Below, piece by piece: positions 4,042 through 44,222 of a stretch of DNA of 64,000 bases. Below the pieces are notes generated by a model that ran no database searches, was not told the origin of the DNA, and was given only the letters and a program-made list of their open reading frames with translations. Numbering within the stretch: the first letter of the stretch is position 1; every line of letters starts with the position of its first letter. The stretch is from Candidatus Pullichristensenella stercorigallinarum (GTDB lineage: Bacteria > Bacillota > Clostridia > Christensenellales > Aristaeellaceae). Made by a program: the position numbers and the translations under genes. The stretch spans positions 1 through 64,000 of the forward strand of contig DVFZ01000103.1 of NCBI GenBank assembly GCA_018712945.1, written 5' to 3'.

Positions 4042-4045
4042 TGCA

Positions 4046-4300
4046 TCAACCGTTGAGGGAGAAAAGTACCCGGAACGGCGTCCTTCAAAGAGAGTCGCGG
4101 GCGGTGGAATCGCGGCAGGGAGGCGTCCGGAGAATGGGCTTCCGAGGGCGCTCTTGAAGTCACAGTAGGGAGCGACGGGAACCGCACCCGTTATCATGGC
4201 GGCATGTGTGATGGCACATGGAGCGAGTGGGTCGAAAGACCAAGTTGAGTGGCACCGCGGGCAACCGTCTCAAGCAAATGGCTTGAGGCGTTTTTTGTTT
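4046..4300 (+). promoter_or_regulatory. T-box riboswitch, predicted tRNA-Trp (UGG specifier)
   Basis: The leader has the landmarks of a T-box in the right order. An AGTA motif follows the base of stem I. An upper stem, CCGGAACG with CGTCCGG, is followed at once by the specifier segment AGAATGGGCT, placing UGG (4135-4137) at the codon position with a purine after it. The T-box sequence TGGCACCGCGGG lies at 4249-4261, and the terminator is CGTCTCAAGC (4266-4275) with GCTTGAGGCG (4281-4290) plus six T. Uncharged tRNA-Trp should stabilise the antiterminator and switch on the transporter downstream. Family T-box is nearly certain; the specifier reading is slightly less so. Confidence 0.93.
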
Positions 4301-4352: not shown

Positions 4353-5306
4353 ATGAAGAAGTTTGCCGCCCTGATGATCGCCGTGATCCTTGCCCTGTCC
4401 TGCTTTGCCTTTGCCGAGGAAGAAAGCTATACCATCGGCATCGCCCAGTTCGCCGAGCACGGCTCTTTGGACAACTGCCGCGAAGGCTTCCTGGCTGGTC
4501 TTGCCGAGGAAGGCATCGTCGAAGGCGAGAATCTTACCGTCGAATACCAGAACGCCCAGGCCGACACCAGCATGGCGACGACGATTGCATCGAACTTCGT
4601 GGCCAACGGCTACGACCTGATTTGCGCCATTGCCACGCCGATGGCCGTGTGCGCCTACAACGCCGCCGAGGACGCCATTCCCGTGATTTATACCGCCGTT
4701 TCCGCGCCGGAAGAAGCCGGCCTGACCGATGGCGGCAACGTCACCGGCACCAGCGACGAACTGCCCGTGGCCCAGCAGCTTGCAACCATCCGCGCCATGT
4801 TGCCCGAGGCTGAAAACATTGGCATCCTCTACACCGTGGGCGAGACCAACAGCCTTGTGCAGCTGGAAACCTACAAGGAGTTGGCTGGCGATTACGGCTT
4901 CACCATCGTGGAAAGCGGCGTCACCAGCGGTGCGGACATCGCCCTGGCCGTGCCCCAGCTTCTGCCGCAGGTGGATTGCCTGACCATGCTCACCGACAAC
5001 ACGGTGGTGCAGTACCTCGAAGTGGTGCTCGATGAGACCGACGCCGCGGGCATCCCGGTGTTTGGCAGCGAGATCGAGCAGGTGACGTTGGGTTGCGTGG
5101 CCGCCGAGGGCCTGGACTACGTGGCGCTGGGTATGCAGACTGGCCGCATGGCCGCCCGCGTGCTCAAGGGCGAAGCCAACGCTGCCGACATCCCCTATGA
5201 GACGATTGAGGAAAGCGCACTCTACGTCAACACCGCCGCCTGCGAGGCTTTGGGCGTGACCATCCCCGAAGAACTGATGGCGCGCGCCACTGACATGGCC
5301 GAATAA
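4353..5306 (+). CDS. trpX: Substrate-binding protein of a predicted tryptophan ABC importer
   Basis: 317 aa with a signal peptide (cleavage probably after AFA, about residue 20). It belongs to the family of ABC substrate-binding proteins named tryptophan/tyrosine transport system (ABC_sub_bind): YTIGIAQFAEHGSLDNCREGF at the start of the mature protein, then VEYQNAQAD and FGSEIEQV further on (quoted here in short blocks). The GGAGG site and ATG are unambiguous. It is first in an operon with a permease and an ATPase, under a Trp-specific T-box, which fits the predicted TrpXYZ system of Firmicutes. A hairpin-forming GC-rich spacer (about 5320-5345) separates it from the permease, as often seen after highly expressed binding-protein genes. 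Confidence 0.9.
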   Translation: MKKFAALMIAVILALSCFAFAEEESYTIGIAQFAEHGSLDNCREGFLAGLAEEGIVEGENLTVEYQNAQADTSMATTIASNFVANGYDLICAIATPMAVCAYNAAEDAIPVIYTAVSAPEEAGLTDGGNVTGTSDELPVAQQLATIRAMLPEAENIGILYTVGETNSLVQLETYKELAGDYGFTIVESGVTSGADIALAVPQLLPQVDCLTMLTDNTVVQYLEVVLDETDAAGIPVFGSEIEQVTLGCVAAEGLDYVALGMQTGRMAARVLKGEANAADIPYETIEESALYVNTAACEALGVTIPEELMARATDMAE

Positions 5307-5414
5307 GATGGGGCGCCCGGCCTGGATTTCTCCGGGCCGGGCGGCCTGCGGGCGCGCCCTGCGTCGGACGCGGCCGCAAGCCGCCCGGAAAACACGACGG
5401 AAGGATGGGATACC

Positions 5415-6317
5415 GTGCTGACGAATTTTGTAAACGCCCTGCCCAGCACCCTGGAACAGGGGTTGATTTACGCCCTGCTGGCGATGGGCGTTTTGATTAC
5501 CTATACAATCCTTGATTTCCCCGACCTGTCTGTGGACGGCACCTTCCCGCTGGGCGGCGTCATTTCCACGATGATGATTGCCGCCGGGCAAAGCCCGATG
5601 CTGGCGCTGCTGGCGGCGGTGGCGGGCGGCGCGGTGGCCGGGCTGTGTACGGGGCTTATCCACGTCAAGCTCAAGGTGCGCGATTTGTTTTCCGGCATCA
5701 TCGTCTCCACGGCGCTCTACTCCATCAATTTGAAGATTTCCGGGGGCAAGTCGCTGGCGACCATCGGTCGTCAGGACGTGACCCTGTTTCAGAACAATGC
5801 CCTCGCGGATTTCCTCGGCGGCATTGTCGGGGATTACAGCACGCTGGTGATTATCATCCTGGTGGTGCTGGTGATGAAAATCCTGCTCGACCTGTTTCTC
5901 AAGACACGCGCGGGCTACCTTTTGCGCGCCGTGGGCGATAATGAGCGCGTGGTGACGGCGCTGGCCTGCGACAAGGGGCGGGTGAAGATTGTCGGCCTGA
6001 TGATTGCCAATGCCTTCGCGGCGCTCTCAGGCGCGGTGCTCTGTCAGCACCAGCGCATGTTCGAGGTGTCCATGGGCACGGGTTCCATGGTGCTGGCGTT
6101 GGCCAGCGTCATCATCGGCATGAACATCTTCCGCCGCGTTTCCTTTGTCAAGGGCACCACGGCGGCCATCGCCGGTGCGATTGTATACCGCATGTGCGTG
6201 TCCCTGGCCATTGCCTGCGGCATGGGCGCCAGCGATTTGAAGCTCATCACCGCCGTTTTGTTCCTCCTCATCCTCGCGGCGGGACTTTTGCGCAAGGGAG
6301 GGAAGAAGCATGCTTGA
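5415..6317 (+). CDS. trpY: Permease of the predicted tryptophan ABC importer
   Basis: 300 aa, strongly hydrophobic with about eight membrane helices. It contains the family stretch YTILDFPDLSVDGTFPLG (about 31-48), in which the DLSVDGTF motif is shared by this type of binding-protein-dependent permease. GTG or a nearby start follows AAGGATGGG; the annotated start gives the full first helix. The gene ends eight bases inside the ATPase gene, implying coupled translation. It would form the homodimeric channel with the neighbouring ATPase and receive substrate from the TrpX-type protein upstream. Confidence 0.88.
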   Translation: MLTNFVNALPSTLEQGLIYALLAMGVLITYTILDFPDLSVDGTFPLGGVISTMMIAAGQSPMLALLAAVAGGAVAGLCTGLIHVKLKVRDLFSGIIVSTALYSINLKISGGKSLATIGRQDVTLFQNNALADFLGGIVGDYSTLVIIILVVLVMKILLDLFLKTRAGYLLRAVGDNERVVTALACDKGRVKIVGLMIANAFAALSGAVLCQHQRMFEVSMGTGSMVLALASVIIGMNIFRRVSFVKGTTAAIAGAIVYRMCVSLAIACGMGASDLKLITAVLFLLILAAGLLRKGGKKHA

Positions 6318-7083
6318 ATTGCGCAACATCTGCAAGGTCTACAACCCCGGCACTGTGCAGGAAATCTGCCTGTTTGAGAATTTCAATCTTTCCGTGCCGG
6401 AGGGGCAGTTTGTCTCCGTGGTCGGCTCGAACGGCTCAGGCAAAACCAGCATGCTCAATATACTCTGCGGCTCTATCCCCGCGGATTCGGGCAGCATACT
6501 GCTCGGCGGCAAGGATATCGTGCGCGAAAGCGAACACCGCCGCGCCCGGCGCATGGGCCGCGTCTACCAGAACCCGGCCATGGGCACCTGCGGTTCGATG
6601 ACCATTCTGGAAAACATGGCTCTGGCCGACAACAAGGGCAAGCCATATAACCTGCGTCCCGGCACCGACCGCCGCCGCGTGGAAGCGTACAAGGAGCTTT
6701 TGCGCCCGCTGGGCCTGGGCCTGGAGAACATGCTTTCCTCCAAAGTGGGCAGCCTTTCCGGCGGCCAGAGGCAGGCGCTTTCGCTGATTATGTCGTCGAT
6801 GACGCCGATAGAGTTTTTGATTCTCGACGAACATACCGCCGCCCTCGACCCCAAGACCGCCGAGATCATTATGGAGCTGACCAACCGCATCGTGCGCGAA
6901 AAGAAGCTCACCGCCCTGATGGTCACGCACAACCTGCGCTATGCCCTCGAATATGGTGACCGCCTGCTGATGATGCACCAGGGCGGCATCGTGCTGGACA
7001 AGGCCGGGGAGGAAAAGCAGAATGTGCGCATGGACGATATCCTGAAGATATTCAACGAGATCAGCATCGAGTGCGGCAATTAG
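6310..7083 (+). CDS. trpZ: ATP-binding protein of the predicted tryptophan ABC importer
   Basis: 257 aa. It has a Walker A motif GSNGSGKTS (about 38-46), the ABC signature SLSGGQRQAL (about 148-157) and Walker B LILDEHTAALDP, where the DEHTAALDP form is typical of this transporter family. A switch histidine follows in MVTHN. It energises uptake with the permease it overlaps by eight bases. The operon ends with or just after this gene; an acetyltransferase gene begins two bases later and may be co-transcribed. Confidence 0.92.
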   Translation: MLELRNICKVYNPGTVQEICLFENFNLSVPEGQFVSVVGSNGSGKTSMLNILCGSIPADSGSILLGGKDIVRESEHRRARRMGRVYQNPAMGTCGSMTILENMALADNKGKPYNLRPGTDRRRVEAYKELLRPLGLGLENMLSSKVGSLSGGQRQALSLIMSSMTPIEFLILDEHTAALDPKTAEIIMELTNRIVREKKLTALMVTHNLRYALEYGDRLLMMHQGGIVLDKAGEEKQNVRMDDILKIFNEISIECGN

Positions 7084-9649: not shown

Positions 9650-10600
9650 TTAGCCGATGGCTACGTAATCGTCGGGAATCTCCACGCCCAGCTCTTCGCA
9701 GATTTCGGGGTTGTACTTCTTGGTGAACGTGGGCGCGTACTCGATGGGCATGGTGGTGATGTCCTCGCCGCCGTCGAGGATGCGCACGGCCATTTCGCCG
9801 GTGGCGACGCCCAGGTCATAGTAGCTGATGGACAGCGTAGCCACGCCGCAGCCGGAACAGATGCCCTCCTCGCCGGCAATGACCGGCACGCCCGCCGGGC
9901 GGCACACGCCGTCAATGATGCCGGTGGAGGAAGCGGCGGTGTTGTCGGTGGGCACGTAGATTACGTCGCTGTATTCGCAGGCGGCGCTGGCGACGGCGGC
10001 CAAGTCGTTGGAATCGGAGAAGGCGAAGTCCTCGCACTCGATGCCGGCGGCCTCAAGCGTCTCGGTGACTACCTGCACCTGGTACACGGAGTTCGGCTCG
10101 GCGGAGCAGTAGAGCATGCCCACGGTCTGCGCGTCGGGGAACAGCTCCATCAGCATGGCGGCCTGCTCGTCCAGGGGCGCCAGGTCGCTGGTGCCGGACA
10201 CGTTGTAGCCGGTCACGCCGTCAAAGTCCGGGATATCCAGCGCCACGCCGTATTCGGTGACGGAGGTACCCAGAATCGGGATGTCATAGGTGGCGGTGGC
10301 GGCGGCCTGTACCGCGGCCGTGGCGTTGGCCATAATCAGGTCTACGCCCTGGGAGACAAAGCTGTTGACGATGGTGGCGCAGGTGTTGCTGTCGCCGGAG
10401 GCATTCTGCACGTCAAACGTCACCCGGTCGCCCATGGCCTCGGTCACCGCGTCCATAAAGCCCTGCGTGGCGGCGTCGAGCGCGTCGTGCTGCACCAGCT
10501 GGCAGATGCCGATGGTATAGGTTTCCTCCTCGGCCGACGCGCCAAGCGCGCAGCCCAGGGTAAGTGCGAGTGCCAGAACCAGCGTGAGAACCTTCTTCAT
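9650..10600 (-). CDS. Substrate-binding protein of the second aromatic-amino-acid-type ABC importer
   Basis: 316 aa with a signal peptide (ALGCALGASA, cleavage near residue 23; a lipobox is not convincing). The mature start TYTIGICQLVQHDALD and VDLIMANATAAVQ and IPILGTSVTEYGVAL belong to the same binding-protein family as the TrpX-type protein at 4353, with clear but moderate similarity. A GGGAG site lies 11 bases before the ATG; the frame is open upstream through the attenuator but that part is not coding. It is first in its operon and lies 40 bases after an intrinsic terminator that forms the attenuator. Confidence 0.9.
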   Translation of the reverse strand: MKKVLTLVLALALTLGCALGASAEEETYTIGICQLVQHDALDAATQGFMDAVTEAMGDRVTFDVQNASGDSNTCATIVNSFVSQGVDLIMANATAAVQAAATATYDIPILGTSVTEYGVALDIPDFDGVTGYNVSGTSDLAPLDEQAAMLMELFPDAQTVGMLYCSAEPNSVYQVQVVTETLEAAGIECEDFAFSDSNDLAAVASAACEYSDVIYVPTDNTAASSTGIIDGVCRPAGVPVIAGEEGICSGCGVATLSISYYDLGVATGEMAVRILDGGEDITTMPIEYAPTFTKKYNPEICEELGVEIPDDYVAIG

Positions 10601-10640
10601 TGTTGTCCGCTCCCTTTCATGCGTTGTTTGTCTATACAAG

Positions 10641-10726
10641 AAAGACGGCTCCCCGGCAAAATCATGGGAGCCGCCTTCAAGTATCCTGCAAAATACCCTA
10701 GCAGTCCGGCCAATGATTTTTCCGGG
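10641..10726 (-). promoter_or_regulatory. Attenuator: terminator with competing antiterminator segment
   Basis: Read on the minus strand, GGCGGCTCCC (10675-10666) pairs with GGGAGCCGTC (10653-10644) and a TTTCTT run follows: an intrinsic terminator. The loop and inner stem (10668-10652) are complementary at 15 of 17 positions to CCCGGAAAAATCATTGG at 10726-10710, which lies inside the leader reading frame just after its tyrosine run. Pairing of that segment would consume three bases of one stem arm, the whole loop and two bases of the other arm, so the two structures exclude each other. This is the geometry of classical ribosome-mediated attenuation. Confidence 0.85.
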
Positions 10727-10856
10727 AAATAGAAGAAATATTGTTATAATAATAGGTATAGCAAAGCTCGCCCCAGCTAAATCGAAACTGGGCGAAAGCA
10801 ATAGCGGGAGTGGCGGCGTGCGTCGCCGCGCAACGCATGCAGTACGGATTGTGCAT
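10698..10856 (-). CDS. Tyrosine-rich leader peptide controlling the second transporter
   Basis: 52 codons starting at an ATG with AAGGAGGGC eight bases upstream and a perfect promoter before that. The peptide includes FSWGELCYTYYYNN: Tyr at residues 33, 35, 36 and 37, i.e. four Tyr codons in five. The stop TAG lies just before the terminator. A ribosome stalled on the Tyr run would leave codons 44-50 free to pair with the terminator loop, giving antitermination; a ribosome reaching the stop would cover them and allow termination. Low charged tRNA-Tyr should therefore switch the importer on. Two Trp codons (28 and 49) are present but isolated. Confidence 0.85.
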   Translation of the reverse strand: MHNPYCMRCAATHAATPAIAFAQFRFSWGELCYTYYYNNISSISRKNHWPDC

Positions 10857-10890
10857 ATAAAACGCCCTCCTTGCCATTGGATTTGCAAGA

Positions 10891-10919
10891 ATTATAGAGC
10901 AAACTTGCAAAATTGTCAA
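10891..10919 (-). promoter_or_regulatory. Consensus sigma-A promoter TTGACA-17-TATAAT of the leader-peptide operon
   Basis: Read on the minus strand, TTGACA (10919-10914) and TATAAT (10896-10891) are both perfect and 17 bases apart, about 35 bases before the leader ATG. Such a strong, apparently unregulated promoter fits control by attenuation. Confidence 0.92.
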
Positions 10920-15476: not shown

Positions 15477-15540
15477 GGGGTTCCTCCTTCTCGCGGCCCT
15501 CCGCCGCGAAGCAAATGTATCCATCCGCGGGAAGCGCGCG

Positions 15541-15690
15541 GGCAGGTTTTCTGGCTCGGCATCGTCTCCCGCGCCGCCTTCCCATCCTGTGGACAGTGGC
15601 ATACCGGCACGGAATCCGCCTTACAGCAGCGGGGGCTGCGCCGGTCTTTCACCGGCTTCCCTTCACCTGCGCAACGGATGAACCGATACA
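15541..15690 (-). promoter_or_regulatory. Cobalamin (B12) riboswitch
   Basis: On the minus strand the conserved blocks appear in order: AGGTGAAGGGAA, CGGTGAAAGACCGGCGCAGC as two adjoining blocks (CGGTGAAAGACCGG and GCAGCCCCCGCTGCTGTAA), GCCACTGTCC, GGGAAGGCG and GAGCCAGAAAACCTGCC. These are the B12-box aptamer core. It precedes the BtuF-like gene by 65 bases, so control is more likely at translation initiation or by a compact terminator near the ribosome site. Confidence 0.95.
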
Positions 15691-15719
15691 AGTATACGCC
15701 ATTTTTCCCCAAAGCGCAA
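15691..15719 (-). promoter_or_regulatory. Promoter of the B12 riboswitch (TTGCGC-17-TATACT)
   Basis: On the minus strand TTGCGC (15719-15714) and TATACT (15696-15691) are 17 bases apart, immediately before the aptamer. Confidence 0.75.
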
Positions 15720-44016: not shown

Positions 44017-44017
44017 G

Positions 44018-44222
44018 CCTACGTTCGGTAGGTAAGGCTCCTGTTGGGATATGGGCTGTTGCCGCAAAATGGTGGAGACACCATGCGCCGGTTTGAACAA
44101 GACGCATCGAACCCAAGGTGCGTTTTAACACAGCTTCACCGCCCTGCAAAGCTAAAGCTCAAACGAATGCACAGGAATGGCTGTATTCCCGTATGTTCAC
44201 CGAACATGCGGGATTTTTTTGT
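44018..44222 (+). promoter_or_regulatory. M-box (ykoK-type) magnesium riboswitch with terminator
   Basis: The core blocks GGTAGGTAAGGCTCCTGTTG and GGATATGGGCTGTTGCC match the M-box pattern GGT-x-AGGCTCCT...GGATA...GGCTGCTGCC, followed by AATGGTGGAGACACCATGCG. A terminator, CCCGTATGTTC with GAACATGCGGG plus ATTTTTTT (about 44189-44221), closes the element. Mg2+ binding should favour termination. The gene downstream is a Mg-type P-type ATPase, which supports the call. Confidence 0.92.

Follow-up and report, generated by a model that had tools for sequence, protein, structure and literature searches.

The window, by which we mean the whole 64,000-nucleotide stretch analysed here, carries on its minus strand an operon encoding a substrate-binding protein (PF04392; 9650..10600, ATG at 10600), a permease (Pfam family PF02653; 8660..9604), and an ATP-binding protein (Pfam family PF00005; 7873..8667). 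The binding protein is homologous to the solved aromatic amino acid binding proteins of the TrpX/CD0873 type; its nearest solved relatives are CD0873 (Tyr bound), SP1069 (Trp), and VC_1101 (Phe), with CD0873, which binds Tyr, being the closest. A Glu is present at the position of CD0873 Glu263, the residue that contacts the Tyr hydroxyl; because the same Glu also occurs in a paralogue under a Trp T-box, this residue does not decide the substrate. As a discriminator between Tyr and Phe, the position was rejected as uninformative, being acidic in all. The operon probably imports Tyr/Phe. The paralogue belongs to another binding protein-permease-ATPase operon of the window (4353-7083), which is preceded by a T-box leader at 4044-4275 (plus strand) with the specifier UGG (Trp); the window's two sister importers are found under two different sensors, a leader and a T-box. 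A cobalamin riboswitch (15524-15702, minus strand) and an M-box magnesium riboswitch (44017-44178, plus strand) lie elsewhere in the window.

The leader of the importer operon is also read on the minus strand. Its −35 box TTGACA (10914..10919), read directly and found as the same hexamer before most homologous leaders, is separated by a 17-base spacer from the −10 box TATAAT (10891..10896); in the homologous leaders, TTGACA mostly lies 17-19 bases before a TATAAT-like box. Transcription is expected to start near 10884, approximately 28 bases before the leader frame. The Shine-Dalgarno sequence AAGGAGGGC (10864..10872), again read directly, precedes a 52-codon leader peptide frame (10698..10856 including the stop; ATG at 10856, TAG at 10700-10698), the translation of which is MHNPYCMRCAATHAATPAIAFAQFRFSWGELCYTYYYNNISSISRKNHWPDC. 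Control codons 33-37, Tyr-Thr-Tyr-Tyr-Tyr (TAT ACC TAT TAT TAT), occupy 10746..10760; the other aromatic residues of the frame are Tyr at residue 5 and Phe at residues 21, 24, and 26. Just 5' of the control codons, folding places an in-frame hairpin (10766..10799), the counterpart of a hairpin designated P1 in the homologues; the fold of 10755-10810, which holds it, has an energy of −17.2 kcal/mol, and the hairpin is regarded as tentative in the window because it is weak in the sister locus described below.

The end of the frame (10700..10729, core 10710-10726) constitutes the antiterminator strand, as identified from duplex energy and nascent folding. The interval from the stop codon to the terminator folds into a small hairpin (10680..10697), and small hairpins are similarly placed in many homologues. 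The intrinsic terminator with its U-rich tract (10638..10679; −23.2 kcal/mol), for which covariation is seen in homologues, has a stem formed by AAGGCGGCTCCC (10677-10666) and GGGGAGCCGTC (10654-10644), and its U-rich tract extends to 10638. Of the 17 bases of CCCGGAAAAATCATTGG (10726-10710), 15 can pair with 10668-10652, and this match forms the core of an extended duplex in which 10729-10700 pairs with 10676-10649; the extended duplex is the best one, at −29.9 kcal/mol versus −23.2 kcal/mol for the terminator. An earlier note on this DNA had named the TTGACA-17-TATAAT promoter, the 52-codon frame with Tyr at residues 33 and 35-37, the intrinsic terminator before the binding-protein gene, and the 15-of-17 complementarity; each was found where it had been placed, with TAT as the Tyr codons, and the complementarity count was exact. 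The window duplex was exceeded by 32 of 2000 dinucleotide shuffles and that of the sister locus by 227 of 2000. Because shuffles match a single-locus duplex often enough, the strong evidence is comparative.

Relatives of the leader

The sister locus belongs to a congener (G004, also L034), where identity to the window is 97% for the binding protein and 80% for the leader DNA. Its leader peptide is 67% identical, with an in-frame three-base (one-codon) insertion, and the run CYTYYYNN is retained identically, as are the stop position, the antiterminator, and the terminator. The leader DNA was found in only 2 of the 7 genomes of the genus, the window's own included. In G479, from another family of the order, MHTLKGKMMRQSIAAARVSPYAFIFTSGVRYWGELFFYYYFANAAHGRPQRQPAC is located before a homologous binding protein-permease-ATPase operon, and this leader is related to that of the window; the window-type leader is represented by the two close sequences plus G479. 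A profile of these three window-like leaders, searched against 248 genomes of the order, returned only those already known.

A wider family of leaders precedes approximately 45 further orthologous binding-protein genes in the bacterial family, the binding proteins being mostly 62-71% identical to that of the window. These aromatic leader peptides (Phe/Tyr, up to eight Tyr) are encoded by Shine-Dalgarno-preceded frames of 45-59 codons located between about −250 and −80 relative to the gene (−250 to −90 for those of about 50 codons, which span some ten genera of the family); examples are ...AARFSFALRFYFFGIYPP, ...AARYFGVLRFYFYAYFF, and ...VLSFYYYYYYYYKK. A Shine-Dalgarno-preceded, aromatic-rich short frame was present in 35 of 115 homologue upstream regions versus 3-15 in 20 Markov shuffles. 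Of 300 genomes from the family, 57, belonging to 12 genera, gave a match to the covariance model R1, which was built from 17 homologous leaders; matches beyond the family were rare. Weak matches at L215, L217, L221, and L223 came without a credible leader frame and were taken as chance. On the window leader, R1 matched at the right place with an E value of 0.99, the window pair lying beyond its calibrated reach. Because of this E value, and because the window lineage falls outside the main leader clade on the binding-protein tree, common descent of the window leader with the main family is likely, not proven.

Orthologous binding-protein genes of other Clostridia and of one MAG labelled Bacillales are preceded by short leaders of 18-22 codons. 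The short Clostridia leaders are unrelated in sequence (MAVRFAYAYGYYYYFSNR, MLQFRFVYAYSTYYRCKG, and MKHAFFYFYSYYYPKHNQ), and several short leaders have antiterminators of 9-11 base pairs (e.g., L094, L067, and L066). A further type of leader, MRPSPYYYLYTVAPAYAMRAVCVYLKL at L131 and MSPSPYYFYGQAPAFALRAVCVHFLL at L133, stands before binding-protein orthologues; a search for a terminator at L133 gave no convincing one.

Covariation and nascent folding

In the homologues, the last part of the frame (CCCAUCUG, CCGUCUG, UCGUCUA, etc.) base-pairs with the loop and arms of the terminator (CGGAUGGG, GGACGG, UAGACG). Standard pairs accounted for 93.9% in the antiterminator with 6 double changes (1 of 500 shuffles), for 95.2% in the terminator with 11 double changes (0 of 500), and for 86.9% in the in-frame hairpin P1 of 17 homologues with 12 double changes (0 of 500); slid controls and shuffles gave lower covariation for all three elements. 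The cognate antiterminator duplexes had a mean of −27.7 kcal/mol versus −23.5 kcal/mol for swapped ones, and none of 20000 permutations reached the cognate mean.

We then folded nascent transcripts extending as far as six bases beyond the terminator loop. The fraction of terminator bases in the antiterminator was 0.69 when the ribosome stood at the aromatic codons and 0.08 when it stood at the stop codon, a contrast seen in 19 of 19 loci; it was weaker when the RNA behind the ribosome was allowed to pair (0.69 versus 0.35; 17 of 19 loci). L012 failed the shuffled nascent control, its run end having been set too far downstream. Without a ribosome, 0.71 of the terminator bases were in the antiterminator on average, and this nascent folding found no protector (1:2) pairing that would hide the antiterminator in an untranslated leader, which should therefore read through. 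Protector pairing belongs to the trp/his type, and not every attenuator needs it. The complete leader folded at equilibrium gave too weak a contrast to serve as a test, and nascent folding was used instead; in many loci the completed terminator prevailed at full equilibrium in spite of a stalled ribosome, and the attenuator model must therefore be kinetic, like that of other attenuators.

Sequence and comparison establish the parts of the leader, their conservation, their covariation, and the mutual exclusivity of the antiterminator and the terminator. The window leader, which unites a promoter and a Shine-Dalgarno-preceded short frame with clustered, conserved control codons, is very probably a ribosome-mediated transcription attenuator responding to Tyr (Phe/Tyr in relatives). 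A shortage of charged tRNA-Tyr would hold the leading ribosome at codons 33-37 with its front edge near 10734, and 10729-10700 would stay free to pair with 10676-10649, which comprises the 5' arm, the loop, and the inner part of the 3' arm of the nascent terminator; with the antiterminator formed, RNA polymerase would continue into the binding protein-permease-ATPase operon. When tyrosine is plentiful, the ribosome would reach the stop codon (10700-10698) and cover most of the antiterminator segment, whereupon the terminator would form and the operon would be off. Translation of the frame and Tyr-tRNA charging as the signal are the presumed inputs, and the in-frame hairpin may pace RNA polymerase.

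The earlier note had proposed this same switch, in which a ribosome at the Tyr codons frees the antiterminator and one at the stop codon covers it, and had suggested folding the leader with and without a ribosome footprint; the co-transcriptional folding model agrees, as the stall frees the antiterminator and the stop position removes it. It had also staked its reading on relatives, which bear it out: the frame and the Tyr run are kept at the sister locus, and the complementarity persists among orthologues as a covarying terminator/antiterminator pair.

Control codons and downstream genes

The identity of the control codons changes with the gene downstream. Among R1 matches, about 46 lie before binding-protein genes, whose leaders carry Phe and Tyr, with Tyr in 28 of 42 distinct runs, and 12 lie before genes for phenylacetate-CoA ligase (paaK), whose leaders carry Phe, sometimes Trp, Tyr being present in one of 10 distinct runs (Fisher p 0.003). 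These R1-type leaders before ligase genes are L163, L184-L188, L192, L193, L198, L202, L212, and L220 (not L189); their Phe codons suggest that the ligase serves phenylalanine synthesis from phenylacetate and, with it, aromatic amino acid supply. R1 also matched before two DAHP synthase genes with the run FFFGWWSW, one of which heads aroF-trpE-trpG-trpD-trpC. Leaders with this run before DAHP synthase genes are L226 (G114 C2), L189, and L201; the operon is that of G114, its trp gene names having been assigned by reading translations, without a family search. At L194 (G066 C226), the run RFLLLGL precedes a leuA-like gene, for which 2-isopropylmalate synthase models matched below the cut-off. 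Because such tracking of the downstream gene by codon identity is hard to explain otherwise, we regard the peptide codons as the sensor, and Tyr/Phe control codons predict the substrates of the importer.

A real attenuator that responds chiefly to phenylalanine, or to translation slowing down in general, with the Tyr codons secondary, is unlikely. Most orthologous leaders do contain more Phe than Tyr, and most orthologue T-boxes read UUC; however, the run in the window has four Tyr and no Phe, the sister has the same CYTYYYNN, and L116, L213, and L094 have Tyr runs. We consider it improbable that the leader works by nascent-peptide arrest or drug sensing, in which the peptide or a small molecule, not uncharged tRNA, would stop the ribosome. 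The AARF..ALRF motif that recurs before the run could have hinted at such a peptide, as could the length of the leaders (~50 codons), and a passage of PMC4191407 describes drug-dependent ribosome-mediated attenuation for the ABC transporter BmrCD of B. subtilis; but the motif is accounted for by the covarying RNA hairpin P1, the 18-22 codon peptides of other lineages are unrelated and share little with the longer ones beyond the aromatic run, and codon identity tracks operon function.

It is very improbable that a U/A-rich RNA element, such as a pause site or a U-tract after P1, produces the aromatic run incidentally and that the frame is no sensor. Although most homologues have a U-rich tract directly after P1 that also encodes Phe, the aromatic codons are concentrated in one frame (Phe/Tyr at 104 of 190 run codons in frame 0 versus 47 and 39 in the other frames), and the runs use TAC and TTC besides TAT and TTT. 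Tyr codons, up to eight consecutive and with TAC among them, make no U-tract; moreover, Trp codons stand before the trp operon and Leu codons before the leuA-like gene, and the Shine-Dalgarno-preceded frame is kept in nearly all leaders. That the site is a T-box or another riboswitch, its frame being incidental, has a negligible probability: T-boxes control the window paralogue and many orthologues, but neither the T-box sequence GGNACCGCG nor a Stem I with specifier was present upstream of leader-bearing loci, and the Rfam 15 covariance models gave no match at the leader site on the minus strand at E values up to 10.

Orthologues without a leader often carry a T-box instead. Its specifier, taken as the codon after the specifier-loop GAA, is UUC (Phe) in most and UAC (Tyr) in three, for which the exact register is less certain. 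Accounting for the leader and T-box labels on a tree built from 150 binding proteins takes 7 changes versus 20 in shuffles, and supported branches force at least 5 switches; one orthologous importer under either a T-box or a translated leader offers a natural series on sensor replacement. As for the attenuator itself, we lean towards a reusable module in this Clostridia family, composed of an in-frame hairpin, exchangeable codons, a stop-codon segment, and a terminator, which would have moved between operons, had its codons reset (Tyr/Phe, Phe, Trp, Leu), and been repeatedly swapped with T-boxes; having no protector, it would also turn the operon on when translation is lost. If so, ribosome and polymerase would be closely coordinated on leaders in these Clostridia. 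Because classical attenuation requires a ribosome close behind RNA polymerase and the leader family is widespread in Clostridia, coupling becomes testable there.

Comparison with known systems

In the proteobacterial trp, his, phe, leu, and thr attenuators, a leader frame carries control codons, and the position of the ribosome selects the antiterminator or the terminator. The window leader resembles them in its control-codon frame, its mutually exclusive antiterminator and terminator, and the presumed decision by ribosome position, whereas its Tyr/Phe transporter target, its Clostridia host, and its leader of ~50 codons are different. Unlike the trp/his paradigm, the leader design has an in-frame hairpin before the control codons, and no protector pairing was found in it.

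In Firmicutes, control by amino acids is mostly associated with T-boxes. Few cases of leader-peptide attenuation are documented there (PMC2965389). The His leader peptide of hisZ/hisS in bacilli (PMC2965389) and the Leu/Ile leader-peptide attenuator of S. aureus ilv-leu (PMC5794164) are similar in that leader-peptide attenuation replaces a T-box in Firmicutes, but they concern other amino acids and genes, in bacilli and staphylococci. The S. suis trpXYZ operon, in which a T-box controls a trpX-type transporter (PMC9382623), shares the transporter family and transcription attenuation upon amino-acid starvation; its T-box binds tRNA directly, without translation, whereas the window operon has a leader expected to be translated instead. 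The uORFC-13-1 motif of Acholeplasma aroF (PMC8632094), compared here by its textual description, likewise combines a promoter, an RBS, a uORF with a Phe-coding U run, and a terminator at an aromatic amino acid gene, but it belongs to another lineage and gene, has at least one Phe only, and is claimed in no Tyr or transporter version by that paper.

The earlier note knew of no described Tyr attenuator for this transporter family, and our literature search for a Tyr leader-peptide attenuator, or one for this transporter, also found none, with many journals outside its coverage. Its reading of the locus as an attenuator is supported, with the amendments that the antiterminator is longer than 17 bases, that relatives mix Phe and Tyr, and that the design is not limited to the transporter. 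A leader family with exchanged codons in related gut bacteria appears to be undescribed. Collectively, the working principle is classical, and the specificity, the lineage, the targets, the in-frame hairpin, and the missing protector are new.
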